From the NCBI GenBank assembly GCA_004295245.1, contig REAR01000086.1:1-39433 (forward strand): 39,433 nucleotides of DNA, given 5' to 3'. The DNA is from Sphingobacteriales bacterium. Its GTDB lineage: Bacteria > Bacteroidota > Bacteroidia > Chitinophagales > Chitinophagaceae. This document shows positions 1,268 through 38,640 of this stretch, one piece after another; positions within the stretch are counted from its first letter, which is position 1, and every line of letters begins with the position of its first letter. The notes beneath the pieces are model-generated. The model was not told where the DNA came from. It did no database searches and saw only the letters and a list, made by a program, of their open reading frames with translations. The translations under genes and the position numbers were made by a program.

Positions 1268-1392
1268 TAGCAGCAGCGTTGCGTCGCAAGCACTTTAACA
1301 GCAGTGCTAATGGCAACAAAAAATGCCGCCACCTGCACTACCGATGAACGGATTGCGACGCAACAATGCTGCCATAGTTTATACGGCTGGAA
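1268..1392. repeat. Palindromic intergenic element, copy 1
   Basis: The left core GTTGCGTCGCA (1278-1288) is mirrored by TGCGACGCAAC (1354-1364), with flanking AGCAGC/GCTGC also mirrored. The arms are separated by 65 nt. The right half contains GATGAACGGATTGCGACGC, which recurs almost unchanged at 8594. The element fills most of the gap between two S74 genes. Confidence 0.75.
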
Positions 1393-1425
1393 TTAAATAA
1401 ATAATAAACCCCCAATATCTGTATT

Positions 1426-3180
1426 ATGAAAAACCTGGTCTTTACCTTATTAGCAAGTACGGTTGTGGTTACAAGTAGCCATGCACAATTAGGTGTTGGT
1501 ACCACCAGCCCTAACTCTATGTTAGATGTGCGTGGTTCTTTTGCAGCCAACTATAGAACTGTTACCGGCACCACCACCATTGCAGCTACAGATAACACAG
1601 TAGTGTTTACTGGAACTTCAGCAGCTACATTAACATTACCCACCGCAATTGGTATTGATGGAAGAGTTTACTGGATTAAAAACGCCAGTACTACTTCGCC
1701 CACACCTACATTAACCATCAGTACTACATCTTCTCAAACAATTGATGGCAACCCAAACTGGGCAATGGATGAGCCTAACGAAAGCATACGTGTGGTGAGT
1801 GATGGTAGTAATTGGTATGTACTAAACCAGGATGTGCCGGTGGCAAAAACAAGTACAACCGGTGGTGCGTGGTTAGAAGGTGGTAACCGGGTTACTGCAG
1901 CAAAAAATATAGGCACTATTACCAACTATAGCCTTCCGTTTATTACCAATAATCTGGAGCGCATGCGGCTGACAACCGGTGGCTTTTTAGGATTGGGTAC
2001 TACCTCACCATCAGGTCGTTTTCACGCAGTGAGTGAAAGCTCTGAGAGCGGGGATGATTATATTTTTGATGATTATGGAGCAGGCATTTCGCAAGGTTTT
2101 TATTTTACAAAATCAAGAGGCACCGTAGCGTCTCCTTCTAATCTTGCACAAAATGACGCAATTGGTTGGATACGTTTTGTGCCGCGTTATAATGGTTCTT
2201 TAGGTTTTAGTGCAGTTTCTTCAATGGAAGCCTACTATCGTGGCGATGGTACTACGGCACTAACCGACCTGCGCTTTTATACCAGTGGTAGCGAAAGACT
2301 GCGTATTAATGAAACTGGTAATGTAGGTATTGGTTCATCCTCATTTAATAGTACGAACCCCGAAAAATTATTAGTAGATGTTGGATCAACTGGTTCTTAT
2401 AACGTAATCAGTGGGCGGGGTAACTTAAATAATTATTTGCAATTGAATATTCAAAACCGCTCTAATGGTACCAGTGCCAGTAGTGATATAGTAGCTACAG
2501 CCAACAATGGCAATGAGAGTTCTAATTATATTGATATGGGTATTAACTCTGGAGGATACAGTAATGCCGGCTTGCCTATTTTGGATGGAATTAATACGGC
2601 TTACTTGTATGCCACCGGCCGTAATTTTTTTATAGGCAATGGTACCGCCAGCAGAGATCTTGTTTTTTTTACCAATGGTTTTCAGAACTCAGATGAGAAA
2701 ATGAGAATTTTAAGTGGGGGTAATGTTGGTATTGGTGTTACCGCACCGGCAGATAAATTATCTGTGGCGGGAATTGCAGCCCCATCTGCAGATAATACGT
2801 ACACACTTGGTAAAAGTGCCTTACGTTGGAGTGCTGTTTATGCAGCTAACGGAACCATACAAACCTCTGATGCACGTTTAAAAACAAATATACTGCCGCT
2901 TCAATATGGGCTTAAAGAAGTATTGCAACTTGCCCCGGTTTCTTATAACTGGATTGATAGCAGCATGCCGGATACTAAAATAGGTTTGATTGCACAAGAA
3001 GTGAAAGATATTATACCAGAAGTAGTGGTAGGTGATGAGAGTAAAGAAAACCTGGGTATGAATTATGCAGAATTGGTACCTGTATTAATAAATGCGGTAA
3101 AAGAACAGCAAGAGCAAATAGATGCCATTGAAAAGAAAATAACTGCTGCTAAAAAAACAGCTAAAAAGAAACGTAATTAA
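1426..3180 (+). CDS. Exported peptidase S74 (tail-fibre-like) protein
   Basis: This is a 584-residue protein with a Sec signal peptide: a lysine, a hydrophobic stretch, then SSHA-Q at about residue 21. GVGTTSP follows, then a domain of about 90 residues shared with the next gene (TLTLPTA...GRVYWIKNAS...VSDGSNWYV). Several VGIG-type fibre repeats come next, then the PEKLLVD...YLQLNI unit and a C-terminal S74 chaperone with TSDARLKTNI (Ser481/Lys486 by position) and GLIAQEVKDIIPEVV. The tail is a Lys-rich coiled coil. S74 domains normally trimerise beta-helical fibres and are then released by self-cleavage. The signal peptide points to a cell-surface or secreted fibre. There is no T9SS sorting domain, so its route across the outer membrane is unclear. 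Confidence 0.85.
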   Translation: MKNLVFTLLASTVVVTSSHAQLGVGTTSPNSMLDVRGSFAANYRTVTGTTTIAATDNTVVFTGTSAATLTLPTAIGIDGRVYWIKNASTTSPTPTLTISTTSSQTIDGNPNWAMDEPNESIRVVSDGSNWYVLNQDVPVAKTSTTGGAWLEGGNRVTAAKNIGTITNYSLPFITNNLERMRLTTGGFLGLGTTSPSGRFHAVSESSESGDDYIFDDYGAGISQGFYFTKSRGTVASPSNLAQNDAIGWIRFVPRYNGSLGFSAVSSMEAYYRGDGTTALTDLRFYTSGSERLRINETGNVGIGSSSFNSTNPEKLLVDVGSTGSYNVISGRGNLNNYLQLNIQNRSNGTSASSDIVATANNGNESSNYIDMGINSGGYSNAGLPILDGINTAYLYATGRNFFIGNGTASRDLVFFTNGFQNSDEKMRILSGGNVGIGVTAPADKLSVAGIAAPSADNTYTLGKSALRWSAVYAANGTIQTSDARLKTNILPLQYGLKEVLQLAPVSYNWIDSSMPDTKIGLIAQEVKDIIPEVVVGDESKENLGMNYAELVPVLINAVKEQQEQIDAIEKKITAAKKTAKKKRN

Positions 3181-3201
3181 TTAACCGATAAAAGCAACAA
3201 T

Positions 3202-4926
3202 ATGATACTGAAACAATATTATGTTTTTTTATGCTTGCTGGTATCGGTAAGCGGTTATGCACAGGTAGGCGTGGGTACTGCAACACCAGCTTCTGGTTTT
3301 GAAATTGAGGGAGCCGTAGCCATGAGCATCCGAAGCTTTACTGCTGGCACTACTGCTGATATAAATGATCAGGTTTTGGTATTTACAGGCACCACTGCTG
3401 CTACCTTAACGCTTCCAACAGCGGCAGGTGCAGATGGCCGTGTATACTGGATTAAAAATGCCAGTAGCAGTTTGCCGGTTCCGGTACTTACAGTGGCAAC
3501 CACCTCGTCTCAAACAATTGATGCGCAGAGTAACTGGTTATTAGATGAGCCTTATGAAGTGGTGCGTTTGGTAAGTGATGGTACTAACTGGAAAGTTGTA
3601 AATCAAAATACCGCCGTTAGGAAAACATCTACTACGGGCACTGCATGGCTGCAGGGTGGTAACAATTTAAAGACAGCAAAATTTGTAGGAGCGATAGAAA
3701 ATTATGCATTGGGTTTTATAACAAATAATATAGAACAAATGCGTATTAATAATGCGGGGCTTTTAGGTATGGGTACTACTAGCCCATCTGGTAGATGGCA
3801 TATGGTAAATGATAATGATGATGCTGCCAATGATTACTATATGGATGATTATGGAACTACAACACAGGGCTTTTTTATAAGAAAATCAAGAGGAAGTGTT
3901 GCAATACCGGGGGATTTACAAAATGGTGATTTGATAAGCCAGTTTAGATTTACCGGAAGATATAATGGAAGCGTTACAAATGCTACGGGTTCTGGTATTG
4001 ACGCTTATTATACAGGCAATGGAACTACGAGTAATACAGATTTACGAATGTATACTTCAAACGCAGAAGCAATGATTTTAAACCCCGCTGGTTATGTAGG
4101 CATTGGCACCAGTAGTTTTTCTGGTACAAATACTGAGAAATTGCTCGTAGATGCAGGATCCAGTTCTTCCTACAACGTAATTAGTGGAAAAGGCGAACTG
4201 GATAATTATCTGCAATTGAATATTAAAAACTCAAATAGTGGTACAACGGCTAGTCAAGATCTTGTGGCTACAGCCAATAACGGAACCGAATCTGTTAACT
4301 ATATTGACATGGGTATAAATTCTGGTGGTTATAGCAGTACACTCATTCCGATATTGGATGGTGTGAATGAAGCTTATTTATTTTCAACGGGTAATGATTT
4401 AAAAATAGGGAATGCATCGGCTACCTACGATTTAGGTTTTTTTACCAATGGTTTTGCCACCACTAATGAGCGCCTGCGTGTAACTGCTGGGGGCAATGTG
4501 GGTATTGGCATTACCTCGCCTGCAGATAAACTTTCTGTTGCTGGTATTATGGCTCCTTCTGCAGACAATACATATACTATCGGTTCTTCTACCAATCGCT
4601 GGAGTGCTGTTTATGCTACCAATGGTACCATTCAAACTTCAGATGCCAGATTGAAAAAAAATATTACTCCCCTTAAGTATGGTATTAAAGAATTGCAGCA
4701 ATTACAAGCGGTTACTTATAGCTGGCTGCTGCAACCTGAACAAAAAAATAAAATTGGCCTAATTGCGCAGCAGGTACAACAAATAATACCTGAAGTGGTA
4801 GTAGGTAATGCAGCAAAAGATAAACTTGGAATGAACTACGCAGAACTGATACCTGTTTTAATAAACACATTAAAGCAACAGCAACTTCAATTAGAACATC
4901 TTAGAAAACAGGCAGCAGCCTTATAA
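3202..4926 (+). CDS. Exported peptidase S74 (tail-fibre-like) protein
   Basis: This 574-residue paralogue starts 21 bp after the previous stop, so the two are probably co-transcribed. The N-terminus is a signal peptide ending SGYA-Q, followed by GVGTATP. It shares the TLTLPTAAGADGRVYWIKNA domain, the fibre repeats and the PEKLLVD...SYNVISGKG unit with its neighbours. The C-terminal S74 domain keeps TSDARLKKNI (Ser480/Lys485) and GLIAQQVQQIIPEVV, then a Gln/Leu-rich coiled coil. Like its neighbour it is probably a trimeric surface fibre with a self-cleaving chaperone. The target it binds cannot be read from the sequence. Confidence 0.85.
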   Translation: MILKQYYVFLCLLVSVSGYAQVGVGTATPASGFEIEGAVAMSIRSFTAGTTADINDQVLVFTGTTAATLTLPTAAGADGRVYWIKNASSSLPVPVLTVATTSSQTIDAQSNWLLDEPYEVVRLVSDGTNWKVVNQNTAVRKTSTTGTAWLQGGNNLKTAKFVGAIENYALGFITNNIEQMRINNAGLLGMGTTSPSGRWHMVNDNDDAANDYYMDDYGTTTQGFFIRKSRGSVAIPGDLQNGDLISQFRFTGRYNGSVTNATGSGIDAYYTGNGTTSNTDLRMYTSNAEAMILNPAGYVGIGTSSFSGTNTEKLLVDAGSSSSYNVISGKGELDNYLQLNIKNSNSGTTASQDLVATANNGTESVNYIDMGINSGGYSSTLIPILDGVNEAYLFSTGNDLKIGNASATYDLGFFTNGFATTNERLRVTAGGNVGIGITSPADKLSVAGIMAPSADNTYTIGSSTNRWSAVYATNGTIQTSDARLKKNITPLKYGIKELQQLQAVTYSWLLQPEQKNKIGLIAQQVQQIIPEVVVGNAAKDKLGMNYAELIPVLINTLKQQQLQLEHLRKQAAAL

Positions 4927-4963
4927 ATTTAAGACATTGTCTTATCCAATTAAACCAGACAAA

Positions 4964-6382: not shown

Positions 6383-6400
6383 ATCGTTTTTAATTTAGGT

Positions 6401-6434
6401 AAAGGTCTCCACCTTCGGGTGGAGACCTTTTTTA
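6401..6434 (+). terminator. Rho-independent terminator, UUCG tetraloop
   Basis: A perfect 13-bp stem (6401-6413 with 6418-6430) closes on TTCG and runs into a T-tract. It ends the S74/T9SS operon. The A-rich 5' side could allow some bidirectional activity. Confidence 0.93.
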
Positions 6435-6550
6435 TTATACAGTTATTGGTTTATACATACAATTAGGCAGAATAGTTCTGTTCCTTTTTTAGTAATTTTA
6501 ATTTTTAAACGAAAGAAAATTTCGGTTTTGATTAATGATAAAAACCAGAT

Positions 6551-8404: not shown

Positions 8405-8431
8405 CGCCGCTTTTATAGCGGCGCTTTTTTT
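8405..8431 (+). terminator. Rho-independent terminator
   Basis: CGCCGC (8405-8410) pairs with GCGGCG (8418-8423) across a 7-nt loop, followed by C and seven T. It sits 25 bp after the DUF6089 stop. Its T-tract runs directly into the GTAACCAGC edge of a palindromic repeat element. Confidence 0.9.
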
Positions 8432-8647
8432 GTAACCAGCTAATGTACTTATGGCAACATCGTTGCTACGCTCAGTTCAACCACAGTGCCAATGGCATCA
8501 ATAGTTGCAAACGTTTGCAACTTACCGGCCAAACAATCTTGCCTTGTGTGCAGCTAATTTGCTTTCTTTGTTGGCTTAATCGTAATAACAAATGATGAAC
8601 GGATTGCGACGCAACAATGCCACACCGGAGTTACCAAAGCTGGTATC
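8432..8647. repeat. Palindromic intergenic element, copy 2, overlapping a gene start
   Basis: The left edge is GTAACCAGC (8432-8440), with left arm CATCGTTGCTACGCTCAGTT at about 8458-8477. The right arm is GATGAACGGATTGCGACGC from 8594, with right edge AGCTGGTA near 8639. The left arm is a variant of the core in which GTCGCACAC reads TACGCTCAG. The right arm and right edge lie inside the coding region that starts at 8592. A perfect 20-bp palindrome sits between the arms. Confidence 0.7.
8503..8522. promoter_or_regulatory. Perfect 20-bp palindrome, LacI-family-type operator
   Basis: The sequence agttgcaaacgtttgcaact is a perfect inverted repeat with a central CG, the usual symmetry of LacI-family operators. 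It lies 70-89 bp upstream of the FG-GAP lipoprotein start. A related GTTTGCAAAC palindrome is found upstream of the LacI gene of this window (29864-29873). Confidence 0.7.
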
Positions 8648-11600
8648 CTATTTAAAACATCGGGTTATTTTTTGTTGTGGTTTATTATGCATGCTAAATA
8701 TGGCTTGTAATAATAGCGGCGCAACTGCAGATGCTAACGCACTGTTTACTTTGATGGATAATACAGGCATTGGGTTTACCAATACAATTACCAATACCAA
8801 AGACTTTAATATTTTCAGCTACCGAAATTTTTATAATGGAGGCGGCACCGCAATTGGCGACATTAATAATGATGGCCTGGCAGATGTTTTTTTTACAGCC
8901 AATATGAGCAGTAATAAACTATATGTAAACAAAGGCAACTGGCAGTTTGAAGATGTTTCTGAAAAAGCAGGTATTACTGAAACTAATAAATGGAGCACGG
9001 GTGTTGTAATGGTTGATATTAATAATGATGGCTGGTTAGATATTTATGTTTGTAATGCAGGCTTTCAAAAAGACATGCCGCAAGAAAATGCATTGTTTAT
9101 TAATAACCACGATTTGACGTTTACAGATAAAGCGAAAGAATATGGGCTGGCTGATGCCGGCTATACCACTCATGCCGCTTTTTTTGATTATGATATGGAT
9201 GGCGATCTGGATTGCTATATTCTTAACAACAGTTTTATACCGGTTAATACATTAAACTATTCTAACAAAAGAGAACTGCGTGCAGAAGACTGGCCAGTAG
9301 CTGATTTTTTAAAGGGTGGCGGAGACCACCTGATGCGGAATGATGGCGGCACATTTACCGATGTAAGTAAAGCTGCTGGTATTTATGGTAGCCTGATTGG
9401 TTTTGGGCTAGGAGTAACTGTTGGTGATGTAAATAATGACGGCTATCCGGATATTTATGTGAGCAACGATTTTTTTGAGAGAGATTATTTGTATATAAAT
9501 CAAAAAAACGGAACGTTTACCGAAGAGCTGGAGCAACGCATGCAACACATCAGTCATTCTTCTATGGGTGCAGATATGGCCGATATAAATAACGATGGCC
9601 ACCCCGATATTTTTGTAACAGAAATGCTGCCAGGAGATGATTACAGGCTTAAAACCACCACCTCCTTTGAAAGTGTGGATATACAACGCCTGAAAGTGAA
9701 GTCGGGTTTTTATAACCAGTTTATGCAAAACACCCTGCAGATAAACAACCAGAACGGAGAATTTGTAGAGACGGCTTTTTACAGCGGAGTAGCCGCTACA
9801 GACTGGAGTTGGGGTGGGTTAATTTTTGATGCTGATAATGATGGACAGAATGATTTATACGTGTGTAACGGCATTAGTAATGATGTAACCGATCAGGATT
9901 TTATTGACTTTTTTGCAAACGATGTGGTGCAAAAAATGGTAATGACCGGAGAGAAGGAAGAGATAGAAAATATTATTCAGAAAATGCCTTCTCAAAAAAT
10001 TGCCAACCGCGTTTTTAGAAACAAAGGTGGTTTGCAATTTGAAGATGTTGGTAAAGCATGGGGCTTTTCAACGCCATCGTTTTCTAATGGAGCCGCTTAC
10101 GGAGATTTGGATAATGATGGAGACCTGGATCTGGTGGTGAATAATCTTAACCAGCAATCTTTTATCTATAAAAACAACAGCCGGGAAAAAAATAATAACA
10201 ACTACATTGGCTTTTCTTTAAAAGGCAGCGCTGCTAATACATTGGCTATTGGTAGTATGGTAAAAATATATGTTGGTAACCAGGTTTTAAATCGTGAGTT
10301 AATACCTACCCGCGGCTTTCAATCGTCAATAGATTATAAAATTATTGTGGGGCTGGGTAAACAGTTTGTAGATTCTGTAGTAATTGTATGGCCCAATAAA
10401 ACTTATACCAGCATACAAAAGCCCGCCATTAATAAAGTTAATATTATTGCACAGCCGCCAGATGCAAAGCCTTATAATTTTACTGGCACACCAATAACAA
10501 CTTTACTATCTGTAAGTACAACAACTTTTGACAAGCATACAGAGGATGATTTTATAGATTCTTATTACGATAGAAATATTCCTATGATGCTGAGCCACGA
10601 AGGACCAGCAATAGCCGTATCAGATGTAAATAAAGATGGGCTGGACGATATTTTTATTGGCGGCGCCAGTCGGCAGGCTGCACAGCTATACTTGCAAACA
10701 GCTACTGGTTTTTTAAAGAAAACAATACCCGCTTTTGATACCAATGCTATTGCAGAAGATGTAGCGGCTGCTTTTTTTGATTGTGATGGCGACGGCGATT
10801 TGGATTTAATAACAGGTAGTGGTGGTAATAACAGAGATAGTGGCAGTGCAGAGTTGCAAAACCATTTATACCGTAACGATGGCAAAGCAAATTTTACTGA
10901 AATAGTAAGTGCTTTACCACACACTACTGCAAATACTAGTGTAATAGCCCCACATGATTTTGATGGCGATGGCGATATAGATGTTTTTATAGGTAGCAGA
11001 AGTTTTCCGCTTAATTACGGGCCCACGCCGCTTAGTTTTATTTGGGTAAACAATGGTAAAGGAAATTTTTCTGAGCTGGCTGCTGCCAATTATACAGCAT
11101 TACGTACTGTGGGTTTAGTAACCAGTGCCACCTGGGCCGATATAAATGGAGATGCTATAAAAGAGTTGATTGTTGTGGGAGAATGGATGGCCCCCCAAAT
11201 TTTTACGTATAAAAATAATCAGTTTGTAGCCTTAACAACAGGTTTAGAAAATTTACAAGGCTGGTGGCAAGCTGTAGCAGCCGCCGATTTGGATGGCGAT
11301 GGCGATACCGATTTTGTATTGGGTAATATGGGCGAGAATACTTATCTGCAACCCAATGCCACTAACCCTGTAAAAATGTGGATGAATGATTTTGATGGTA
11401 ACGGGGCACCAGAAAAAATCATCAGCCGTACTATTGATGGGCAGGATATGCCTGTATTTTTGAAAAGAGATTTAACAGAGCAGGTGGTATCGTTAAAAAA
11501 AGAAAACCTGAAGCATGTAGATTTTGCAAAAAAACCAATTCAACAATTGTTTAACGCCGCCGCTATGAAAAATGTGCAGGTAAAAACATTTAATTACAAT

Positions 11601-11972
11601 AGCAGTTGTATTGCAATTAATAATGGAAAGGGTGGGTTTACTGTAACTCCATTACCTGTAATGGTGCAGTTATCCAGTGTAAATGCTATAAAAATTGCAG
11701 ATGTAAATAACGATGGCAAACCAGATATTGTAGCGGGTGGTAATAAGTTAAGCTGGTTGCCGCAGTTTTGTCGGTTAGATGCTAGCTTAGGCCATGTATT
11801 AATTAATAAAGGCAGTAATAATTTTGAGTGGCTGCCCAACCAGCAAAGCGGTTTACAACTGCGTGGAGAAATAAAGCATATTGAACTGGTAAAACGTTCA
11901 AGAAATAATGCACTCTTATTTGTGCGTAATAATGAAGTGCCGGTTATGTACCAGTTGCAATTAAAAAAATAG
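8592..11972 (+). CDS. FG-GAP/VCBS-repeat lipoprotein with ASPIC/UnbV domain
   Basis: This protein has up to 1126 residues. A lipoprotein signal is visible (VIFCCGLLCMLNMA-C, Cys39). Many DxNxDGxxD calcium-binding loops of FG-GAP/VCBS beta-propellers follow (DINNDGLADV, DINNDGWLDI, DVNNDGYPDI). An ASPIC/UnbV-type domain lies at about residues 535-620 (IGFSLKGSAANTLAIG, RGFQSS, VVIVWPN), then more FG-GAP repeats. Such proteins are common beside SusCD systems and are thought to act at the cell surface, but their substrate is not established. The only in-frame starts (8592, 8595 and a TTG at 8604) all lie inside a palindromic repeat, so the first ~18 residues are repeat-encoded. A LacI-type operator lies just upstream. 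Confidence 0.88.
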   Translation: MMNGLRRNNATPELPKLVSYLKHRVIFCCGLLCMLNMACNNSGATADANALFTLMDNTGIGFTNTITNTKDFNIFSYRNFYNGGGTAIGDINNDGLADVFFTANMSSNKLYVNKGNWQFEDVSEKAGITETNKWSTGVVMVDINNDGWLDIYVCNAGFQKDMPQENALFINNHDLTFTDKAKEYGLADAGYTTHAAFFDYDMDGDLDCYILNNSFIPVNTLNYSNKRELRAEDWPVADFLKGGGDHLMRNDGGTFTDVSKAAGIYGSLIGFGLGVTVGDVNNDGYPDIYVSNDFFERDYLYINQKNGTFTEELEQRMQHISHSSMGADMADINNDGHPDIFVTEMLPGDDYRLKTTTSFESVDIQRLKVKSGFYNQFMQNTLQINNQNGEFVETAFYSGVAATDWSWGGLIFDADNDGQNDLYVCNGISNDVTDQDFIDFFANDVVQKMVMTGEKEEIENIIQKMPSQKIANRVFRNKGGLQFEDVGKAWGFSTPSFSNGAAYGDLDNDGDLDLVVNNLNQQSFIYKNNSREKNNNNYIGFSLKGSAANTLAIGSMVKIYVGNQVLNRELIPTRGFQSSIDYKIIVGLGKQFVDSVVIVWPNKTYTSIQKPAINKVNIIAQPPDAKPYNFTGTPITTLLSVSTTTFDKHTEDDFIDSYYDRNIPMMLSHEGPAIAVSDVNKDGLDDIFIGGASRQAAQLYLQTATGFLKKTIPAFDTNAIAEDVAAAFFDCDGDGDLDLITGSGGNNRDSGSAELQNHLYRNDGKANFTEIVSALPHTTANTSVIAPHDFDGDGDIDVFIGSRSFPLNYGPTPLSFIWVNNGKGNFSELAAANYTALRTVGLVTSATWADINGDAIKELIVVGEWMAPQIFTYKNNQFVALTTGLENLQGWWQAVAAADLDGDGDTDFVLGNMGENTYLQPNATNPVKMWMNDFDGNGAPEKIISRTIDGQDMPVFLKRDLTEQVVSLKKENLKHVDFAKKPIQQLFNAAAMKNVQVKTFNYNSSCIAINNGKGGFTVTPLPVMVQLSSVNAIKIADVNNDGKPDIVAGGNKLSWLPQFCRLDASLGHVLINKGSNNFEWLPNQQSGLQLRGEIKHIELVKRSRNNALLFVRNNEVPVMYQLQLKK

Positions 11973-11978
11973 TTTTTT

Positions 11979-12084
11979 GTTGCCAGCAGCAGTACTGCTA
12001 TTAAACATCGTTGCGTCGCACACTTGTACTGCAGTTGCAGTGTGCGACGCAACAGTGCCCGGTTAATGCACCACTGCTGGTAAC
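11979..12084. repeat. Palindromic intergenic element, copy 3 (best complete copy)
   Basis: This compact copy defines the family. The outer arms GTTGCCAGCAG (11979-11989) and CTGCTGGTAAC (12074-12084) match at 10 of 11 positions. The inner arms GTTGCGTCGCACACT (12010-12024) and its exact complement (12039-12053) form a perfect 15-bp stem around a 14-nt loop. It fills the space between two paralogous genes and would fold into a long hairpin in RNA. Confidence 0.9.
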
Positions 12085-12103
12085 CCAATATTGAAATTCT
12101 AAA

Positions 12104-15100
12104 ATGAGGCATTTAAAAAATTATTTGGGCTGTTTATTATTGTTAGTGTGGCTGGTTGGGTGTAAGCAACCGCCTGCAGTGCCGGTATTGTTTGAAGTAT
12201 TGGAAAGCAGCACTACAGGCATCAACTTTACCAACAAGCTTAGCCCCACACCATCTTTTAACATGTTTAAGTACATGTATTTTTATAATGGTGCCGGTAT
12301 TGGTGCCGCCGATTTTAATAAAGATGGTTTACCCGATTTATTTTTTGCGGCCAACCAGAGTGCTAATAAATTATACCTGAATGATGGAGCATTGCATTTT
12401 AAAGATATTACTGAAACAAGCGGTATAACAAACGATGGCGGATGGAGTACCGGTGTTTCTATAATAGATATTAATAACGATGGCTTGCTTGATATTTATG
12501 TTTGCCGCGTTGGAAATTTTCAGCAACTGCAAAGTAAAAATCAATTGTGGGTATGCACGGGTATTACAAAAGATAGTATTCCGCAATTTAAAGAAGCAGC
12601 TGCTGAATATGGCCTTGCATTTTCAGGCTTTAGTACACAGGCTGCTTTTTTAGATTATGATTTGGATGGAGACCTGGATATGTACTTGCTGAACCACTCA
12701 CTTCGCTTTAACGGAACTTTTGAGCCAAGAGCTGCTTATGCCAATACATATGACTCGCTGGCTGGCGACCGCTTTTATAGAAATGATGGTAATACGTTTA
12801 CAGATATTACCCGCAAGGTGGGTATTAACAGCTCAATAATTGGTTATGGCCTGGGTATTTGTGTAGCCGATATTAATTTAGATGGCTACCCTGATATTTA
12901 TATTGGCAACGATTTTCATGAAAACGATTATCTCTATATTAATCAACGTAACGGCAGTTTTAAAGATGAGTTAACCAATGCGATGATGCATACCAGCCAG
13001 TTTTCAATGGGTGTGGATGTGGCAGATGTTAACAATGATGCGCAACCAGAAATTATTTCTATGGACATGTTGCCGGAAGACCCATATATATTGAAACGGA
13101 GTTTAGGCGAAGATGCTTTTGATATTTTTAGTTTTAAAATACGGCATGGATATAATTACCAGTATGCACGCAATACCTTGCAATACAATAATGGTAATGG
13201 GTTGTTTAGTGAGCTGGGTTTGTATGCCGGCGTATATGCAACCGACTGGAGCTGGGCACCGCTGTGGTTAGACTTTGACAACGATGGTCTGAAAGATTTG
13301 TTTATTTCTAATGGCATACCTAAGCGGCTGAACGATATTGATTATGTAAACTACGCTTCTAATGATGAGCTGCAACAAAAAATAAGAGAAAATAAATTAC
13401 AGGATAATGATTTTGCATTAATTGAAAAATTTCCGCAGATAAAACTGCGGAATAAGTTTTTTATCAATACCGGTAATTTAAAATTTAGTGATGCGGCAGC
13501 ATCTATAAAAAACGATAAAGAAACCTTTTCAAACGGTACGGTGGCGGCAGATTTTGATAATGATGGCGACATTGATATTGTTGTAAATAATATTGATGAC
13601 CCCGTTTTAGTATATAAAAATAATAGTAGCAGCAATACCTCAAAAGAGTTTATAAAACTGCAGCTAAAAGGTACAGCAGCAAATACACAGGCGTTGGGTG
13701 CTAAAGTGGTGGCATATACAAAAGCTGGTATCAGAACTTATGAAAAATGGCCCGTGCACGGTTTTCAATCTTCTATGGAAGCGCCGGTACATATTGGTGT
13801 AAAAAATACCTTGGTAGATTCTATATTGGTGATATGGCCCGATAACAGTTACGAGAAATTGCAGCCTGCTGCAGGTTTGGTAACCAATGTGGCGTATAAA
13901 AGCAATTTACCGGTGTTTAATTATACACGTCTCCAAAAACCAATTGAAGCAACAAATGCATTCAGCATTAGTAATACAACCGGGTTAAATTATTTGCATA
14001 CCGAAAACGATTTTGTAGAGTTTGATCGGGAGCAGCTATTGCCTTTTATGCTATCTAAAGAAGGACCTGGCGTTGCAGTGGCAGATATTAATCATGATGG
14101 GTTGGAAGATGTATTTATCGGCTCATCAAAAACATATAAACCCGCAGTCTTTTTACAAACCAGTAATGGCAGCTTTATAAAATCAATACAACCATCGCTT
14201 CAAGCAGATAGTATGTATGAAGAAGTAAGCGCTTGCTGGGCCGATGTAAATAATGATACACATCCTGATTTAATTGTTGCCAGCGGTGGTAATGAATATT
14301 ATGGAAAAGATGAGCACATGATGCCCCGCCTTTTTTTAAATGATGGTAAAGGCAATCTTTCTTTAAAGCAAGCGGCTTTTACTAATTTTTATTTAACTGC
14401 CAGCACAGTTGCTGCGCAGGATATTAACGGCGATGGTAAAATTGATTTATTTATTGGTGCCCGTTCCGTGCCTTGGAAGTATGGAGAACTGCCGCATTCC
14501 TATTTCTTACTAAATGATGGGCAAGGAAATTTTAAAGATGCCACAGCTACACTGTGTAAAGAACAGGAAATACATGGCTTTGTAAAAAACGCTCAATGGG
14601 CCGATTTGGATAAAGATGGGGATGCTGATTTGTTACTGGCTTTAGAGTGGGATGGTATTGTAGCCTATATTAATAATAAGGGTAGGTTTGCCCGCAAACA
14701 ACTTACTGCCGAAAGTGGGTGGTGGAATTTTGCAACTCCCTTTGATATAGATAATGACGGCGATCTTGATATTATTGCCGGCAACTTAGGTTTAAACAGC
14801 AGATTACAAGCCAGCAAAGAACAACCGGTGCATTTATATGTGAACGATTTTGATGGAAATGGTACTAAAGAACAGGTGCTAACTTATTTTCTTAATAACC
14901 GGGAACTTCCATTTGCTAACAAAGCAGAATTAGAAAAGCAGTTGCCCATTTTAAAAAAGAAATACCTGTATGCAGAAGACTTTGCTAAAGCCAGTTTAAA
15001 AGATATGTTTGGCAGCAATAAGTTAAACGAAGCTGAACTGCTTACCGCTAATTATTTTGCCAATACTATTTTTATAAACAATGGTAAAATGAATTACACA

Positions 15101-15418
15101 GCCGTTGCCATGCCGTGGCAGGCACAATTAACCTCATTAAAAGACGCAGTAATAATAAATGCTAATAACGATGCACTACCAGATATTTTAATTGCCGGAA
15201 ATTTTTATGAGAATAATATACAAATGGGCCGTTACGATGCCAGCTATGGTAACGTACTTATTAATAAAGGCAATGCCCAGTTTACCTGTGTGCCGCTAAA
15301 TGGTATGCTTGTTAAAGGGCAGGTACGGCATATACAGCCCATTATGGTTGGAGGCAAACCAAACTGGTTATTGGTGCGTAATAACGATAGCAGCTTACTG
15401 CTGCAGCAAAGCCATTAG
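12104..15418 (+). CDS. FG-GAP/VCBS-repeat lipoprotein with ASPIC/UnbV domain, paralogue
   Basis: This 1104-residue protein has a standard lipoprotein signal (CLLLLVWLVG-C, Cys20). It has the same architecture as the preceding gene: FG-GAP calcium loops (DFNKDGLPDL, DINNDGLLDI, DINLDGYPDI), an ASPIC/UnbV-type block at about residues 512-600 (IKLQLKGTAANTQALG, HGFQSS), then further repeats. Both share the internal phrases GVYATDWSW/GVAATDWSW and LPFMLSKEGP/IPMMLSHEGP, so they arose by duplication. A palindromic element separates them, so co-transcription is uncertain. Its likely place is the outer-membrane surface, in glycan or protein binding; the partner is unknown. Confidence 0.9.
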   Translation: MRHLKNYLGCLLLLVWLVGCKQPPAVPVLFEVLESSTTGINFTNKLSPTPSFNMFKYMYFYNGAGIGAADFNKDGLPDLFFAANQSANKLYLNDGALHFKDITETSGITNDGGWSTGVSIIDINNDGLLDIYVCRVGNFQQLQSKNQLWVCTGITKDSIPQFKEAAAEYGLAFSGFSTQAAFLDYDLDGDLDMYLLNHSLRFNGTFEPRAAYANTYDSLAGDRFYRNDGNTFTDITRKVGINSSIIGYGLGICVADINLDGYPDIYIGNDFHENDYLYINQRNGSFKDELTNAMMHTSQFSMGVDVADVNNDAQPEIISMDMLPEDPYILKRSLGEDAFDIFSFKIRHGYNYQYARNTLQYNNGNGLFSELGLYAGVYATDWSWAPLWLDFDNDGLKDLFISNGIPKRLNDIDYVNYASNDELQQKIRENKLQDNDFALIEKFPQIKLRNKFFINTGNLKFSDAAASIKNDKETFSNGTVAADFDNDGDIDIVVNNIDDPVLVYKNNSSSNTSKEFIKLQLKGTAANTQALGAKVVAYTKAGIRTYEKWPVHGFQSSMEAPVHIGVKNTLVDSILVIWPDNSYEKLQPAAGLVTNVAYKSNLPVFNYTRLQKPIEATNAFSISNTTGLNYLHTENDFVEFDREQLLPFMLSKEGPGVAVADINHDGLEDVFIGSSKTYKPAVFLQTSNGSFIKSIQPSLQADSMYEEVSACWADVNNDTHPDLIVASGGNEYYGKDEHMMPRLFLNDGKGNLSLKQAAFTNFYLTASTVAAQDINGDGKIDLFIGARSVPWKYGELPHSYFLLNDGQGNFKDATATLCKEQEIHGFVKNAQWADLDKDGDADLLLALEWDGIVAYINNKGRFARKQLTAESGWWNFATPFDIDNDGDLDIIAGNLGLNSRLQASKEQPVHLYVNDFDGNGTKEQVLTYFLNNRELPFANKAELEKQLPILKKKYLYAEDFAKASLKDMFGSNKLNEAELLTANYFANTIFINNGKMNYTAVAMPWQAQLTSLKDAVIINANNDALPDILIAGNFYENNIQMGRYDASYGNVLINKGNAQFTCVPLNGMLVKGQVRHIQPIMVGGKPNWLLVRNNDSSLLLQQSH

Positions 15419-15423
15419 TTATA

Positions 15424-15523
15424 AGCCAGCTGTGTAACTACATTCAACATCGTTGTGTCACTCACTGCAGCAGCAGTATGAAATTGTGCAAATAAAGCAT
15501 AGCAGCATTACTGCTGGTAACAA
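15424..15523. repeat. Palindromic intergenic element, degenerate copy 4
   Basis: The left edge (AGCCAGC) and a decayed left core (CATCGTTGTGTCACTCACTG from 15449) are present, and the right edge CTGCTGGTAACAA (15511-15523) is intact. The right core is no longer recognisable. The element lies between convergent genes. Confidence 0.55.
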
Positions 15524-15527: not shown

Positions 15528-17838
<2,311 letters not shown>

Positions 17839-17993
17839 AAAAAATTTCCGCAAAAAAAAGATGTATCTCAGAACCAAAAAATAGTCAACAAAATTTTTCC
17901 ATCTGGTTTTTTTGGCAAAGATTTGTGTACTTATTACACATCGACAACGATGTAGTTGCCTTATACTTCAATCAAAACTTAAAAACGATTGTT
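17839..17993 (+). promoter_or_regulatory. Upstream region of the first susC
   Basis: This is AT-rich leader sequence with A- and T-runs. The closest match to the Bacteroidota -7 element TAnnTTTG is AAGATTTG near 17918, without a convincing -33 TTTG. No operator palindrome was seen. It must hold the promoter of the susCDEF operon, but I cannot place it firmly. Confidence 0.35.
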
Positions 17994-24616: not shown

Positions 24617-24622
24617 ATAATT

Positions 24623-24669
24623 AAAAACCGGGTAGGTGCTGCATACAGTGGCATCTTCCCGGTTTTTTT
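24623..24669 (+). terminator. Rho-independent terminator of the susCDEF operon
   Basis: AAAAACCGGG (24623-24632) pairs with CCCGGTTTTT (24658-24667), and the T-run continues. An inner AGGTGC/GCATCT pairing extends the stem. It lies 7 bp after the stop, so the downstream GH13 gene probably has its own promoter. Confidence 0.9.
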
Positions 24670-24671
24670 AT

Positions 24672-24999
24672 GTAGCCAACTGCACCACCTTGGGCAGCTG
24701 TTGTTGCCACGCTCGGTTCATCGGTAGTACTTATAGCAACAAATACCGGCAACGAGCACATAATTCTAACTTTTTTTCAGTTCACAGCTTTCGTTTTTTA
24801 CAATCTGTACCCTTATTTTACATTCAAAGGGCGGTTGTATAAAATAAATACACCTGCCATCGTTATAGTAGCAGGCAGGTAAGCGTATTACTATTGTTAT
24901 AATAGCAGCATTGTTTTTGCAGTAAGCAGCCTGGCTATATTATACCGCTGCAGTGTGCGACGCAACAACTGCTGAAATAAGCACCCAAGCCGGTATAAC
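24672..24999. repeat. Palindromic intergenic element, copy 6, with 230-nt interior
   Basis: The left edge GTAGCCA (24672-24678) and left arm GTTGTTGCCACGCTCGGTTC (24700-24719) are mirrored by a right core GTGTGCGACGCAAC (24953-24966) and right edge AGCCGGTATAAC (24988-24999). The interior holds a small hairpin (24852-24858 with 24874-24880) and AT-rich sequence that may contain the GH13 promoter. This accounts for most of the 462-bp gap before the GH13 gene; I see no gene in it. Confidence 0.65.
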
Positions 25000-25078
25000 A
25001 AAAAAAACGGCACGTAAGCCCTGCCAAAAAAATTGTTCAAAAAAAAGTATGAGTAACTTGTACAACAAATTATTTTCT

Positions 25079-28002: not shown

Positions 28003-28716
28003 ATGGGAACAGCCAACCAAAAAACTATTCAGCAGATACAGTCAGAAAACAGCGATTTTTTTAGGATTGCCTTTTCTGTTGACTGTGTAATATTCGGGTT
28101 TCATAAAAATGAATTGAATGTACTATTGCTGAAATCTGATTTGGAAGAGTTTAAAGACAAATGGTCTTTATTGGGTGATTTGGTGCGTACCGATGAAAAT
28201 CTGGATGACGCACCTTATCGCATTCTTCAAGAAAGAACAGGCTTAAAGGATGTTTTTTTAGAACAGGTGAGCACTTTTGGAGATATTGACCGTCACCCTG
28301 CCGGACGAGTAATAACTACAGTGTATTATTCCCTTATAAATGTAAAAGATCATCTCCTACGGTTACAGCATCACGAGCTTTCATGGTTTCCGGTAACCAA
28401 AATGCCACAATTAGCATTTGATCATTATAAAATACTGCAAACCTGTATTAAAAAATTGCAGGATAAAATAGATAAAGAGCCCGTTGTTTTTAATTTATTA
28501 CCAGAAAAATTCTCGCTAAGAGAACTACAAAATTTATACGAAGCCATCTTAGATACAAAACTGGACAGAAGAAATTTCAGAAAGAAACTTTTTTTAATGG
28601 ATTGGTTGGAGGATGCAAAAGAAATGGAGCAAGATGTTCCGCATCGTCCAGGAAAGTTGTATCATTATCGTGCTAGTACAACAAAACCTGCAACAGCACA
28701 AACCCTTGTTCAATAA
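28003..28716 (+). CDS. NrtR-family (Nudix-like) transcriptional regulator, probable sugar sensor
   Basis: This 237-residue protein starts 23 bp after the GH13 stop, so it is probably in the same transcript. An N-terminal Nudix-like domain (VDCVIFGFHKNELNVLLLK) is followed by a C-terminal winged helix (FSLRELQNLYEAILDTKLDR, then NFRKKLFLMDWL). The Nudix box has decayed: the segment from GDLVRT to ILQERTGL lacks the RE..EE acidic set needed for hydrolysis. That fits NrtR-type proteins that bind a ligand instead of cleaving it. In Bacteroidota, members such as AraR respond to sugars, so a glucan-derived effector is plausible here. Confidence 0.85.
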   Translation: MGTANQKTIQQIQSENSDFFRIAFSVDCVIFGFHKNELNVLLLKSDLEEFKDKWSLLGDLVRTDENLDDAPYRILQERTGLKDVFLEQVSTFGDIDRHPAGRVITTVYYSLINVKDHLLRLQHHELSWFPVTKMPQLAFDHYKILQTCIKKLQDKIDKEPVVFNLLPEKFSLRELQNLYEAILDTKLDRRNFRKKLFLMDWLEDAKEMEQDVPHRPGKLYHYRASTTKPATAQTLVQ

Positions 28717-28724
28717 TAGTATTT

Positions 28725-28780
28725 GGCCAGCAGCAACAAGCATAGCAACATTGTTGCGTCGCACACTTCAGCTACAGTAA
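28725..28780. repeat. Palindromic element family, solitary left half
   Basis: The left edge GGCCAGCAG (28725-28733) and left core GTTGCGTCGCACACT (28753-28767) are present, with no matching right arm nearby. It lies between the convergent NrtR and LacI genes. The next unpaired right half is at about 38528-38582. Confidence 0.7.
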
Positions 28781-33157: not shown

Positions 33158-33177
33158 TAACGATTAAATTTATAAAT

Positions 33178-34695: not shown

Positions 34696-34718
34696 TCTTA
34701 GCATCGCTAAATATTCAG

Positions 34719-34755
34719 GAAGGTCATCTTAGTAAGATGGCCTTCTTTATTTTTA
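34719..34755 (+). terminator. Rho-independent terminator of the second susCD operon
   Basis: GAAGGTCATCTT (34719-34730) pairs with AAGATGGCCTTC (34734-34745) with one G-T pair across a 3-nt loop, followed by TTTATTTTTAT. It starts about 24 bp after the susD stop. Confidence 0.88.
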
Positions 34756-34820
34756 TACCAGCAATATCAAAAACCTCATCCGCAGTTGCGACGCTCCGTT
34801 CATCTGTTGTGCAAAGCTCA
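34755..34820. repeat. Palindromic element family, left half upstream of the amidase gene
   Basis: The edge ATACCAGC (34755-34762) and arm GTTGCGACGCTCCGTTCATC (34785-34804) are in left orientation. The matching right half lies beyond the amidase gene at 35792-35851. Confidence 0.6.
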
Positions 34821-34889
34821 TCACTTCTCTTTAAAGTGCTTCATTATCTAAGGCCGTATTTATTTTGTAGCTTTCCATAAATATTTTTA

Positions 34890-35702: not shown

Positions 35703-35791
35703 TGGCTTATTTTTAAGGTTACATTATTAAGTTTGCAGAATCAACTATTGATATTTTTTCTTACAACTGCTTATTTAACCTGCATCCTATA

Positions 35792-35851
35792 TGCACTGCA
35801 GATGAACTGAGCGTAGCAACGATGCTGAACTATGCGATACCACTGGCTAAC
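35792..35851. repeat. Palindromic element family, right half downstream of the amidase gene
   Basis: GATGAACTGAGCGTAGCAAC (35801-35820), then GATGCTG, and the right edge CTGGCTAAC (35843-35851). It is the mirror image of the left half at 34755 and nearly the complement of the arm at 8458-8477. Confidence 0.65.
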
Positions 35852-35890
35852 TAATAATTGCTATGCCTTTGTTACTTAAATAAAATAATA

Positions 35891-38512
35891 ATGACAGCTG
35901 AACATAAAAGGTTACAAGAAAATGCACAGAAACCAGTGCCATTGGAAAAATGGGGCCCTTATTTGAGTGAACGGCAATGGGGCACCGTGCGGGAAGATTA
36001 CGGGCATTATGGCGATGCATGGGGTTATTTTCCGTTTGAACATGCACATTACAGAACGTATCTGTGGGGCGAAGATGGCATAGCCGGTATGTGTGATTAT
36101 TTACAAGATCTGTGTTTTGGAGTGGCGGTATGGAATGGAAAGGATGCACTTATTAAAGAGCGTTTATTTGGCGTTGGTAATTATAAAGGCAATCATGGAG
36201 AAGATGTGAAGGAGTTGTATTATTATCTGGATAATATTCCGTCTCATTATTACATGCAGTATTTATACAAGTATCCGCAAACAGCTTTTCCATATAAAAA
36301 ATTGTATGAAGAAAATGCCAAACGCAGTCGGCAAGAACCAGAATATGAAATATTAGACACTAACGCATTTAAAGACAACCGGTATTTTGATGTATTGGTT
36401 ACTTATGCAAAAGAATCATCTAACGATATTTTTATTAGAATAGATGTTACCAACCGCTACAACCGTGCTGCAGACATACATTTATTACCTACTCTTTGGT
36501 TTGCTAATAAATGGAGTGTTGATAAGGATGCCGCAAAACCTGTTATTGTTTGGGAAGATAGTAACTGTGTTAAGACCTATCATAAAAATGCGGGCAACTA
36601 TTATTTTTATTTTGAACAGCCAAGGCATAGTTGGTTTACAGACAATGAAACCAACTATGAGAAGTTTAACAGCACCCCCAACACTTCTGTTTTTGTAAAA
36701 GACGCATTTCATGATGCGCTGCTGCACGATAAACATCGGAAAGAATTGACAGAAAGAAAACAGGGTACCAAGTTTTCGCCCGTGTATAAATTGCATGTGC
36801 ATGCCGGCGAAACAAAAACAATTTATTGCAGGCTTACAGATACAGAACAAGAAGAACCATTTTATAATGAGTTTAAAAATATTTTTACCACCCGCAAGCG
36901 GGAAGCGGATGAGTTTTACAATGCTATCAACAAAAAAGAAATTACTACTGAATTAAAAAAGATAAACCGGCAAGCCTATGCTGGTTTATTATGGAGCAAA
37001 CAATACTATCGCTTTGATGTAGAAAAATGGATTACCGGAACCGATGGTATTACACCGGCTAACAACGGAAAAATACATGGCCGCAATAACGATTGGAAGC
37101 ACCTGAAGAATGAAGATATTATTTGCATGCCAGATAAATGGGAATATCCGTGGTACGCTGCCTGGGATTTGGCTTTTCAGTGTGTGGCCATGGCCGCAAT
37201 AGACCCGGTGTTTGCCAAGCACCAGCTGCTGTTAATAATGCGGGAGTGGTATATGAAGCCCGATGGACAGTTACCTGCTTATGAATGGAACTTTAGCGAT
37301 GTAAACCCACCCGTGCATGCCATGGCGGCATGGTGGGTATATAAAATAGAAAAGCAACAGAAAGGCGTAGGAGATGTTCGCTTTCTTAAAAAAATATTTC
37401 AAAAGCTTATCATCAATTTTACGTGGTGGATAAACCGGAAAGATGATAATGGTAATAATCTTTTTCAGGGGGGCTTTCTTGGGTTGGATAATATTGGTGT
37501 GTTTAACCGCAGCCATCATATACCTGGCAACCTGCGCTTAGAACAGGCAGATGGCACTTCTTGGATGGGCATGTATGCTTTAAATATGATGGATATTGCC
37601 ATGGAAATTGCCATACACGATGATGCTTTTGAAGATACCGCCACCCGTTTTTTTGAACACTTTGTTTTAATTGCGGAAGCATTGAATGAGCAGCATCTTT
37701 GGAACGAAGAGGATAAGTTTTTTTATGATGTGCTTTGCCTGAACGATGGCACTACTAAACCGCTGCAAATAAAATCTGCGGTGGGGTTAACTGGTCTCTA
37801 TGCGGTAAGCACTATTAATAAGAACGTATTAAAGCAGCTTAAAGATTTTAATAAACGCATTACCTGGTTTGAAAACTACCGTAAAGAAAACCACCTGTTC
37901 TGGCCCAATGAAGACAAGAGTGATAGCGACGAAATGTTATTATCACTGGTACCCAAAGAAAAACTCATTCCTATTTTGCAGCGCTTGTTAGATGAAGATG
38001 AATTTCTTTCCATTGCAGGCATACGGGCTTTATCAAAAGCACATGAAAAAATACCGTATTCAGTAACTATTGATGGGCACGAGTATTCCATTCGTTACGA
38101 GCCCGGCGATTCTACTTCAGATATGTTTGGTGGTAACAGTAACTGGCGTGGCCCTGTATGGATGCCGGTTAATTTTTTAATTATCCAATCCATTCGCCGC
38201 TTTGGTATGTTTTACGATGATAGTTTGAAGGTAGAATACCCACGCGGTTCTGGCGTGCAGCTAAACCTGCAACAGGTAGCCGATAAATTATCTGAACGCA
38301 TTATTAATTTATTTGTACGCAACAGTAACGGAGAGCGCCGTTGTTATGAAGATTATAATTGGTTTTACCAGCAACCCGGCAACGAAGAGCTGATTTTATT
38401 TTACGAATATTTTCATGGCGATAGCGGAAAAGGGTTAGGCGCCAACCACCAAACAGGGTGGACGGCCTTAGTGGCGCAACTAATAAGCGAGTACAATGAA
38501 CCGAAACCTTAG
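35891..38512 (+). CDS. GH63-like glucosidase (MGH1-like fold)
   Basis: The ATG at 35891 gives MTAEHKRLQENAQ, the usual start of this bacterial glucosidase family; an upstream in-frame ATG at 35858 adds an unrelated segment. It has 873 residues. Family blocks are WGPYLSERQWGTVREDY, RLFGVGNYKGNHGEDVKELY, PTLWFANKWS, the (alpha/alpha)6-barrel segment PDGQLPAYEWNFSDVNPPVH, and the C-terminal NSNWRGPVWMPVNFL and GANHQTGW. No signal peptide is seen, so it is probably cytoplasmic. GH63 enzymes are inverting alpha-glucosidases. Here it could finish degradation of imported oligosaccharides, but the substrate is inferred only from context. Confidence 0.88.
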   Translation: MTAEHKRLQENAQKPVPLEKWGPYLSERQWGTVREDYGHYGDAWGYFPFEHAHYRTYLWGEDGIAGMCDYLQDLCFGVAVWNGKDALIKERLFGVGNYKGNHGEDVKELYYYLDNIPSHYYMQYLYKYPQTAFPYKKLYEENAKRSRQEPEYEILDTNAFKDNRYFDVLVTYAKESSNDIFIRIDVTNRYNRAADIHLLPTLWFANKWSVDKDAAKPVIVWEDSNCVKTYHKNAGNYYFYFEQPRHSWFTDNETNYEKFNSTPNTSVFVKDAFHDALLHDKHRKELTERKQGTKFSPVYKLHVHAGETKTIYCRLTDTEQEEPFYNEFKNIFTTRKREADEFYNAINKKEITTELKKINRQAYAGLLWSKQYYRFDVEKWITGTDGITPANNGKIHGRNNDWKHLKNEDIICMPDKWEYPWYAAWDLAFQCVAMAAIDPVFAKHQLLLIMREWYMKPDGQLPAYEWNFSDVNPPVHAMAAWWVYKIEKQQKGVGDVRFLKKIFQKLIINFTWWINRKDDNGNNLFQGGFLGLDNIGVFNRSHHIPGNLRLEQADGTSWMGMYALNMMDIAMEIAIHDDAFEDTATRFFEHFVLIAEALNEQHLWNEEDKFFYDVLCLNDGTTKPLQIKSAVGLTGLYAVSTINKNVLKQLKDFNKRITWFENYRKENHLFWPNEDKSDSDEMLLSLVPKEKLIPILQRLLDEDEFLSIAGIRALSKAHEKIPYSVTIDGHEYSIRYEPGDSTSDMFGGNSNWRGPVWMPVNFLIIQSIRRFGMFYDDSLKVEYPRGSGVQLNLQQVADKLSERIINLFVRNSNGERRCYEDYNWFYQQPGNEELILFYEYFHGDSGKGLGANHQTGWTALVAQLISEYNEPKP

Positions 38513-38527
38513 CTGCTTTGTATACTA

Positions 38528-38582
38528 CCGATAAACGGATTGCGACGCAACGATGCCGCTATATAATCTAAAGCTGGTAATA
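38528..38582. repeat. Palindromic element family, right half
   Basis: CCGATAAACGGATTGCGACG, followed by CAACGATGCCGC, nearly repeats the sequences at 1341 and 8594. The right edge AGCTGGTAA is at 38572-38580. Confidence 0.7.
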
Positions 38583-38584
38583 TA

Positions 38585-38640
38585 GTTACCGGCATTTGTA
38601 CGCTGCTCAGCAGTTGTTGCGTCGCACACTTGTGCTACAC
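38585..38640. repeat. Palindromic element family, left half
   Basis: The core GTTGCGTCGCACACT (38616-38630) is followed by TGTGCTACAC. It directly abuts the preceding right half, back to back, in front of the DUF72 gene. No second arm is seen before that gene starts. Confidence 0.65.

Follow-up and report, generated by a model that had tools for sequence, protein, structure and literature searches.

Orientation and spacing in a high-copy, REPIN-like repeat family of Chitinophagaceae-type bacteria

The closest described relatives of the repeats analysed here are the repetitive extragenic palindromic (REP) sequences, which form inverted doublets known as REPINs (REP doublets forming hairpins) or bacterial interspersed mosaic elements (BIMEs) and are associated with REP-associated tyrosine transposases (RAYTs). 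In the compared passages on Pseudomonas fluorescens SBW25 (PMC3116915), such elements are high in copy number, intergenic, arranged as inverted doublets and set at preferred spacings. The same properties are found in a family of arms of about 60 nt in the genome of a Sphingobacteriales bacterium, of which one contig (REAR01000086.1, 39,433 nucleotides) was analysed as a whole and is referred to as the window. Unlike the REPs of SBW25, the single arms form no hairpin and lack a conserved GTAG, and neighbouring arms follow an orientation rule on the kilobase scale. Singlets in SBW25 are somewhat more diverged than doublets, which holds only slightly for the Chitinophagaceae arms, and doublets are rarely mixed in SBW25, whereas those of the closed genome G180 mostly are: 50 of its 63 facing pairs typed as A or C join an A core with a C core. 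For SBW25, distances to the next neighbour above 200 bp are given as without deviation, and orientation at that range is absent from the passages considered (PMC3116915). The family is REPIN-like, yet it fails two hallmarks of REPs, the hairpin of the arm and the GTAG foot.

Two further systems come close. According to the compared parts of PMC6006769, IS200/IS605 and TnpAREP enzymes act on single-stranded, lagging-strand DNA, and TnpAREP subclass 2.6 (RAYT group 5) of Bacteroidetes goes with atypical REPs which lack GT[AG]G, are weakly structured and have copies elsewhere in the genome, a likeness to the arms by description. The CGTC-tagged repeats, as far as the passages of PMC3733652 go, have their tag in common with core types A and D of the arms, while type C has TGTC and type B is without CGTC; moreover, facing dimers dominate, head-to-tail dimers are negligible (and are rare for REPs), no dedicated transposase is known, and Bacteroidetes are among the hosts. 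Their stem of 8-9 bp with a loop of 4-5 nt beside the tag is absent in the arms, which form no single-arm hairpin. In the passages of the compared literature, a narrow check, there is no report of a same-strand exclusion zone, which we regard as the new part of the present analysis.

Orientation of neighbouring arms

Arms were counted in samples of five genomes: G000, which is the window's own genome (546 of 3371 kb; 3.37 Mb in 269 contigs, with the window as contig C176), G180 (500 of 5528 kb), G059 (400 kb), G188 (160 kb) and G103 (140 kb). Each genome had its own profile, trained on arms from the same genome and used with a threshold of 12 bits, and facing arms less than 320 nt apart were counted as a facing pair, or dimer. 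Arm pairs are mutually dependent; binomial p-values are a guide only, and orientation shuffles were used alongside.

The rule was spotted in G000 and G180 and afterwards checked on the three others, and every genome agrees. Solo arms lying 320-2000 nt apart point in the same direction in 12 cases and in opposite directions in 143 (93 facing, 50 back to back), as opposed to 296 same and 284 opposite at 3-8 kb; the tandem gene array at 250-300 kb of G180 was omitted from both counts. The same-direction share at the shorter range is 0/29, 6/58, 2/30, 3/23 and 1/15 in the individual genomes. When the arms were found by pattern, with no profile and no omissions, the result was 13 same and 90 opposite near, and 221 same and 201 opposite far. 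For all arm pairs taken together, same-direction pairs account for 1/144 below 150 nt, 2/31 at 150-320 nt, 0/21 at 320-700 nt and 2/33 at 0.7-1 kb, then for 17/79 at 1-1.5 kb, 24/89 at 1.5-2 kb and 46/116 at 2-2.5 kb, and for 49-51% beyond.

Consecutive solo arms alternate, with 21 same-direction neighbours in G000 (43.2 expected, sd 4.7) and 20 in G180 (54.3 expected, sd 5.2), and none of 2000 shuffles was as low in either genome. The cause of this alternation is the distance between the arms. At 1-2 kb, consecutive arms with one gene between them are opposite in 13/13 cases in G000 and 31/36 in G180, and those with two genes between them in 6/7 and 10/12. Combinations of two units of which at least one is a dimer necessarily include two arms on the same strand, and they too are depleted at short range: the solo-dimer density is 15/kb near and 70 far, the dimer-dimer density 1.8 near and 12.6 far. 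Sorted by the number of matches between their cores (14-15, 10-13 or fewer), same and opposite pairs number 1/10, 0/38 and 1/4 at 320-1000 nt and 8/24, 8/32 and 1/6 at 1-1.5 kb; within these small counts, and with a far baseline that is itself uneven (56%, 45% and 53% same), the rule does not visibly weaken when the cores differ. Something thus seems to act on the arms as a class, per strand and over 1-2 kb. Cassettes that bracket genes were considered and rejected, because facing arms around genes are random in type (21 same, 21 different) and because facing and back-to-back pairs among all arms are nearly balanced at 1-2.5 kb (92 and 105). At 320-1000 nt, facing pairs are the more frequent (43 and 9).

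The arm family and its distribution

The dispersed character proposed in the preliminary description is borne out genome-wide, as the exact 15-mer core occurs 439 times in G000 and 0 times in the reversed control; a looser pattern, GTTGCNNCGCNCNNT, yields 802 copies there and 7 in the control. By profile, G000 yielded 202 arms in about 0.54 Mb and G180 yielded 270, with 0 on reversed sequence, and 141, 82 and 66 in G059, G188 and G103, with null matches of 0, 0 and 1. Scaled from the samples, this corresponds to about 1,250 arms in G000 and about 3,000 in G180. The exact core was present in 27 of 99 genomes searched, all of which belong to the same family as the window; of the 39 genomes from other families of the order, 0 had it. 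Counts of the loose pattern across the family (394 genomes) run from background level up to 1296 (G180), 1059 (G188), 974 (G103), 869 (G059) and 802 copies (G000); most rows are near control counts by eye, and congeners differ strongly (12 and 279, 10 and 700). Amplification across Chitinophagaceae-type genomes is patchy. Rfam gave 0 matches at the gathering score in 119,433 bases from five sources, and the core sequences were not found in literature text, where the matches listed hold only the string GTTGCGTCGCA and are unrelated by title; no named family was matched, as before.

The unit is an arm consisting of a T-run, an ACC(A/G)GC box, about 20 weakly constrained bases and a core of 15-16 nt. 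In 115 arms from 386 kb, the T-run is located at about -40 to -32 and the box around ACC(A/G)GC at -28 to -23, and the weakly constrained bases are followed by a CA(T/G)(C/T)-like stretch, the core and then TCAGC or TGTAC. The outer edges had been described as shared; they are looser than that, the exact GTAACCAGCAG occurring once, at 17652, while the T-run and the box are conserved. Two sequence types had been proposed, but at least four core types were found: A (GTTGCGTCGCAC[ACT]CT), B (GTTGC[TCG]ACGCTC[AGC]GT), C (GTTGTGTCACTCACT) and D (GTTGCGTCGCAATCC). Bases 6 and 13 of type B covary (T/A, C/G, G/C) in 14 copies, and one other copy (L104) breaks the covariation. The T-run has a mean of 5.6 and 5.7 T per 10 nt in the two gene orientations, compared with 3.1 in the intergenic background; as it is equally strong when the upstream gene points away, it belongs to the arm, and its interpretation as a relic of a terminator was rejected for the same reason. 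Both outer ends of facing pairs commonly carry a T-run by eye. A conserved GT[AG]G foot was not found among the 115 arms, in which GTAG is only a variant of the left box beside GTAACC, GTAGCC, GTTACC and others. A variant of the arm in G000, seen beside solo arms in L071, L097, L069 and L103, has the bases before the core swapped for the perfect hairpin TCCCGAAACTTCGGGA, followed by TTGCGTCGCA.

The arms are intergenic, as had been stated: just 9/162 lie inside ORF (open reading frame) calls, which are crude longest-ORF calls, and the 11 of 115 arms that overlap such calls lie at most about 120 nt from the ORF end, where start codons are uncertain. Sense arms peak with the core 33-42 nt past a stop codon (33 genes), and 51% of these genes have at least 6 T in the first 9 nt after the stop, compared with 7% of 123 genes without arms; over the four gap settings the arms number 50/47/33/29, without a clear preference for gene orientation.

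Facing pairs are common, and two inverted units which fold together, as in REPINs and BIMEs, are found in them. A facing arm lies within 300 nt of 42% (G000) and 49% (G180) of the pattern-found arms, a back-to-back arm within that distance of 2% and 4%, and a same-direction arm of 0-1%. By profile, 78/202, 132/270, 30/141, 30/82 and 32/66 arms of the five genomes are in facing pairs (21-49%). Their spacings in G180 cluster at 49 and 56 nt, and some pairs are alike across 130-180 nt, the interior included, from which it follows that pairs are copied as units. Compared with shuffles, close facing pairs fold with a mean z of -7.3 in G000 (n=22, 95% below -2) and -3.6 in G180 (n=30, 63% below -2). 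No hairpin was detected in solo arms folded as 80 nt with RNA parameters, with a mean z of -0.42 (G000) and 0.10 (G180) for at most 60 arms each, of which 8% and 3% were below -2, nor in six arms of the window folded as DNA (z -1.2 to 1.3). Palindromic elements, as they had been called, are therefore present in the pairs and not in the single arms. When 162 arms were aligned, RNAalifold found no consensus structure. We also considered solo arms as half-decayed pairs. A partner scan with the left part only (>8 bits) showed facing partners in weak excess in G000 (59 among 121, 42 and 32 in the controls) and no excess in G180 (21 among 137, 26 and 30 in the controls); a decayed partner was not seen beside most solo arms of either genome, which speaks against this reading. 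In G000, the interiors of pairs sometimes belong to small separate repeat families, AAGTCGGCAAGACCGAAAGTC-like and GATTTGAAATTTCTGATTTGAAATTT-like (e.g. L105 2259 and 5251; L083 7956; L097 16866). At about 254-297 kb of G180 (L312, which is 260-280 kb, and its neighbours), permease-like paralogues of about 2.4 kb each are arrayed in tandem, many of them separated by a facing arm pair; L312 holds seven full-length ORFs of about 800 aa, permease-like by eye.

The age of the arms was approached through their cores. Without a profile, the G000 sites with 0, 1, 2 and 3 mismatches to the nearest core type number 130/58/17/32, compared with 0/0/1/27 in the reversed null, and the other four genomes resemble this distribution. 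Damaged cores are thus rare, the 3-mismatch count being near the null. Among type A arms, identity is 38-51% over the 40 nt to the left of the core and 85-96% in the core itself, the latter value being inflated by the 12/19 bases which define the type. For the same reason an initial finding that solo arms are as conserved as paired ones was withdrawn, as the first measure fixed 12/19 core bases by class. The mean core mismatches of solo arms and dimers are 0.56/0.35, 0.43/0.23, 0.25/0.17, 0.87/0.70 and 0.53/0.28, so that solo arms are slightly more diverged in all five genomes. In the genomes G026, G161 and G229, which are 80-90% identical over the compared pieces, four arms of G026 are matched by an arm or a remnant at the corresponding site of each of the other two genomes, and in the eight orthologous comparisons 4 type A cores and 1 type B core were kept and 3 were altered or broken. 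G188 and G246, which are about 70% identical, share arms at some positions, whereas at several other orthologous gaps just one of the two species has arms, usually together with 100-200 nt of additional sequence.

The arms of the window

All 11 places at which arms had been listed in the window hold arms of the one family, 16 by profile (Table 1). The 15-mer core with at most 3 mismatches has 12 matches in the window, compared with 0.68 expected, and 0/100 shuffles reach 12.

Table 1. Arms of the repeat family in the window, with strand, core position, core type and profile score.
Element	Position	Plus-strand core (type)	Minus-strand core (type)	Profile score (bits)	Remark
Facing pair	1238..1404	1278-1292 (D-like)	1350-1364 (D)	24.4, 32.9	arms 1238-1297 (+) and 1345-1404 (-)
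Facing pair	8422..8655	8462-8476 (B)	8601-8615 (D)	34.4, 30.9	
Facing pair	11970..12093	12010-12024 (A)	12039-12053 (A)	54.8, 52.7	best copy
Solo arm	15412..15471	15452-15466 (C)		27.7	core GTTGTGTCACTCACT
Facing pair	17643..17847	17683-17697 (A)	17793-17807 (A)	55.1, 55.7	
Facing pair	24663..25006	24703-24717 (B)	24952-24966 (A)	32.7, 59.0	core spacing 249 nt
Solo arm	28713..28772	28753-28767 (A)		36.6	
Solo arm	34745..34804	34785-34799 (B)		31.8	
Solo arm	35801..35860		35806-35820 (B)	29.7	
Arm	38532..38591		38537-38551 (D)	22.9	back to back with 38576..38635
Arm	38576..38635	38616-38630 (A)		51.7	

The best copy, for which a perfect 15-bp stem had been claimed, does contain it (12010-12024 / 12039-12053). 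It sits between two same-direction genes, with the T-run immediately 3' of the upstream gene's TAG stop codon, and folds as DNA with a z of -4.7. The segment 1248-1397 of the first pair folds into one hairpin (z -5.8); the piece 17643-17792, which ends short of the second arm of its pair, gave a z of +1.7. An intrinsic-terminator-like hairpin at about 8406-8431 precedes the second pair in the sequence. The solo arm at 35801..35860 is oriented opposite to the arm 1.0 kb upstream.

Regarding the neighbouring genes, positions 1-4926 hold three paralogous large repeat-type proteins, and 8592-15418 two adjacent paralogous proteins, each longer than 1100 aa and containing many D-x-N-x-D-G repeats that look FG-GAP-like by eye, with an arm pair in between. 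The relatives of the NAD-kinase of the window (80 of 398 kept) are mostly Chitinophagaceae or other Bacteroidota records, the best being 76% identical.

Possible causes of the orientation rule

We give a probability of about 0.45 to the reading that the arms form a REPIN-like family of Chitinophagaceae-type bacteria, non-autonomous and very high in copy number, with strand-specific, single-strand excision between same-strand arms. The lagging-strand template exposes about 1-2 kb of single-stranded DNA, the scale of an Okazaki fragment. A single-strand nuclease or transposase would recognise the arms on each DNA strand separately, a candidate being a Bacteroidota-type, RAYT-like HUH enzyme or a similar one. 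Two same-strand arms within one single-stranded stretch of the lagging-strand template would be treated as ends, and the DNA between them would be lost, genes included; arms on opposite strands would be safe, whether facing or back to back, and the facing pairs would be the copying unit. An enzyme of single-stranded DNA would explain the rule because any given single-stranded stretch offers the arms of just one strand for cutting. More tentatively, the repeat map could be a record of ongoing or recent strand-specific excision, in which the length of exposed lagging-strand DNA sets a same-strand exclusion zone of 1-2 kb and so makes hundreds of copies alternate along the chromosome.

Several observations weigh against excision by such an enzyme. 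We infer the rule to stem from excision, but a rule acting at the time of insertion would yield the same map, and the preponderance of facing over back-to-back solo pairs at 320-2000 nt (93 and 50) is not predicted by the model. Single arms do not fold, so the hairpin recognised by known Y1 enzymes is missing. The cognate enzyme is itself only a candidate. The RAYT model NF047646 matches 320/394 genomes of the family, with high and low copy numbers alike, and RAYT presence therefore says little; neither PF01797 nor NF047646 finds a match in G026, a 100% complete genome where the pattern occurs 264 times, and the sole Y1 protein detected in G000 is IS200-like. Where arms do adjoin RAYT genes, in G059 and G103, they are imperfect, were missed by the profile and were seen by pattern and eye, and the homologue in G012 has no arm upstream.

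A search for a RAYT-type (Y1) transposase, as proposed in the preliminary description, did find such genes. G180, with 0 matches to PF01797, was at one point taken as free of RAYTs, which was rejected since NF047646 finds 5. Among the loci examined there are four RAYT-like ORFs, three of them close homologues (G059, G103, G012), and two of these three have an arm upstream of the start codon in the sense direction. Both arms are of type C; that of G103 contains one extra base, and that of G059 is interrupted by an insert of more than 100 nt, the nearest pieces lying about 70 nt from the start codon. The fourth ORF, from G180, is divergent, with arms at 326 and 600 nt downstream of it. Y[LI]HNNP and WQ motifs are present in the G059 and G103 proteins, whose HUH motif starts with S rather than N; the two proteins are compatible with the motifs of Bacteroidetes subclass 2.6, and also of 2.4. 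Overall, the link between the arms and RAYTs is suggestive only. Beside the RAYT gene of G059 lies a second, tandem-like repeat family (L228 5600-6230; caaatggtctaagtatg and ctggcgcaagtatgc), which is unrelated to the arms by eye and is probably the own element of that RAYT or another element. In G000 (contig C141), strong hairpins of the GCCCACGGTTTTAACCGTGGG type at L088 5690-5820 adjoin the IS200-like Y1 gene and look unrelated to the arms.

Among the alternatives, it is unlikely, though the best of them, that a chromosome-organising or regulatory protein binds the arms, that selection keeps them and that this protein needs alternating orientation. The rarity of damaged cores in all five genomes, obtained without a profile, would fit such sites, as would the low identity of only 38-51% in the 40 nt to the left between type A arms and the intact core in 5/8 orthologous comparisons (4 type A, 1 type B); but the other 3/8 have an altered or broken core, some congeners differ 20- to 70-fold in copy number with most of the 394 genomes near control by eye, gaps of 100-200 nt come with the arms, and whole pairs are copied with their interior. 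A loss of same-direction arms through RecA-independent slippage or homologous recombination between direct repeats, which we regard as improbable, would account for the fact that direct repeats are the ones missing and that the effect decays with distance. This process should depend on identity, yet no dependence on core identity is visible in the small counts, and the arms are on average only about 53% identical. Slightly less probable still is a miniature inverted-repeat transposable element (MITE) of a DDE transposon with the facing arms as terminal inverted repeats (TIRs): facing pairs with the T-runs outside do resemble inverted ends and are copied as units, but a DDE enzyme would take facing arms as its ends, so that facing arms around genes should be purged and same-direction ones tolerated, and the reverse is observed. 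Genes inside plus-minus spans of 0.4-3.2 kb also look like ordinary host genes by eye and without a family search, and no transposase was recognised by eye among the ORFs of these spans in G000 and G180, for which no family search was run. It is because of the orientation rule that a DDE/TIR MITE is disfavoured; of the REP/BIME- or MITE-like nature suggested earlier, the REP/BIME architecture remains, with high copy number, intergenic position and facing pairs, and the arm hairpin and GTAG do not.

A function as an RNA element, either a terminator or a transcript stabiliser, is very improbable. Sense arms do often lie directly behind a stop codon (33 genes) or a terminator-like hairpin, and the pairs fold; set against this are the gene orientations without clear preference (50/47/33/29), the unfolded single arms, and the lack of a consensus RNA structure and of an Rfam match, so that of the RNA hairpin considered earlier only the pairs could qualify. 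We give least credence to a DNA-uptake-type sequence (DUS/USS; DNA uptake sequence/uptake signal sequence) with dialects, which the arms recall in their short fixed core, several dialects, flanking T-rich block and inverted pairs. Known uptake sequences are common in genes, while only 9/162 arms lie inside crude ORFs, and the arms bring a context of 60 nt and are copied as pairs.

Should strand-specific single-strand excision be the cause, the arms would be ends that are recognised in the single strand without hairpins, and the exclusion zone would reveal the reach of the enzyme from sequence alone. The finding bears on how REP-like sequences spread and what they cost. The orientation-and-distance rule, observed in five genomes, provides a test that tells strand-specific single-strand excision apart from duplex transposition; it requires no data beyond a genome sequence and can be sought in the REPs of E. 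coli and Pseudomonas. If the reading is true, such repeats would shape gene order by barring neighbouring same-strand copies.

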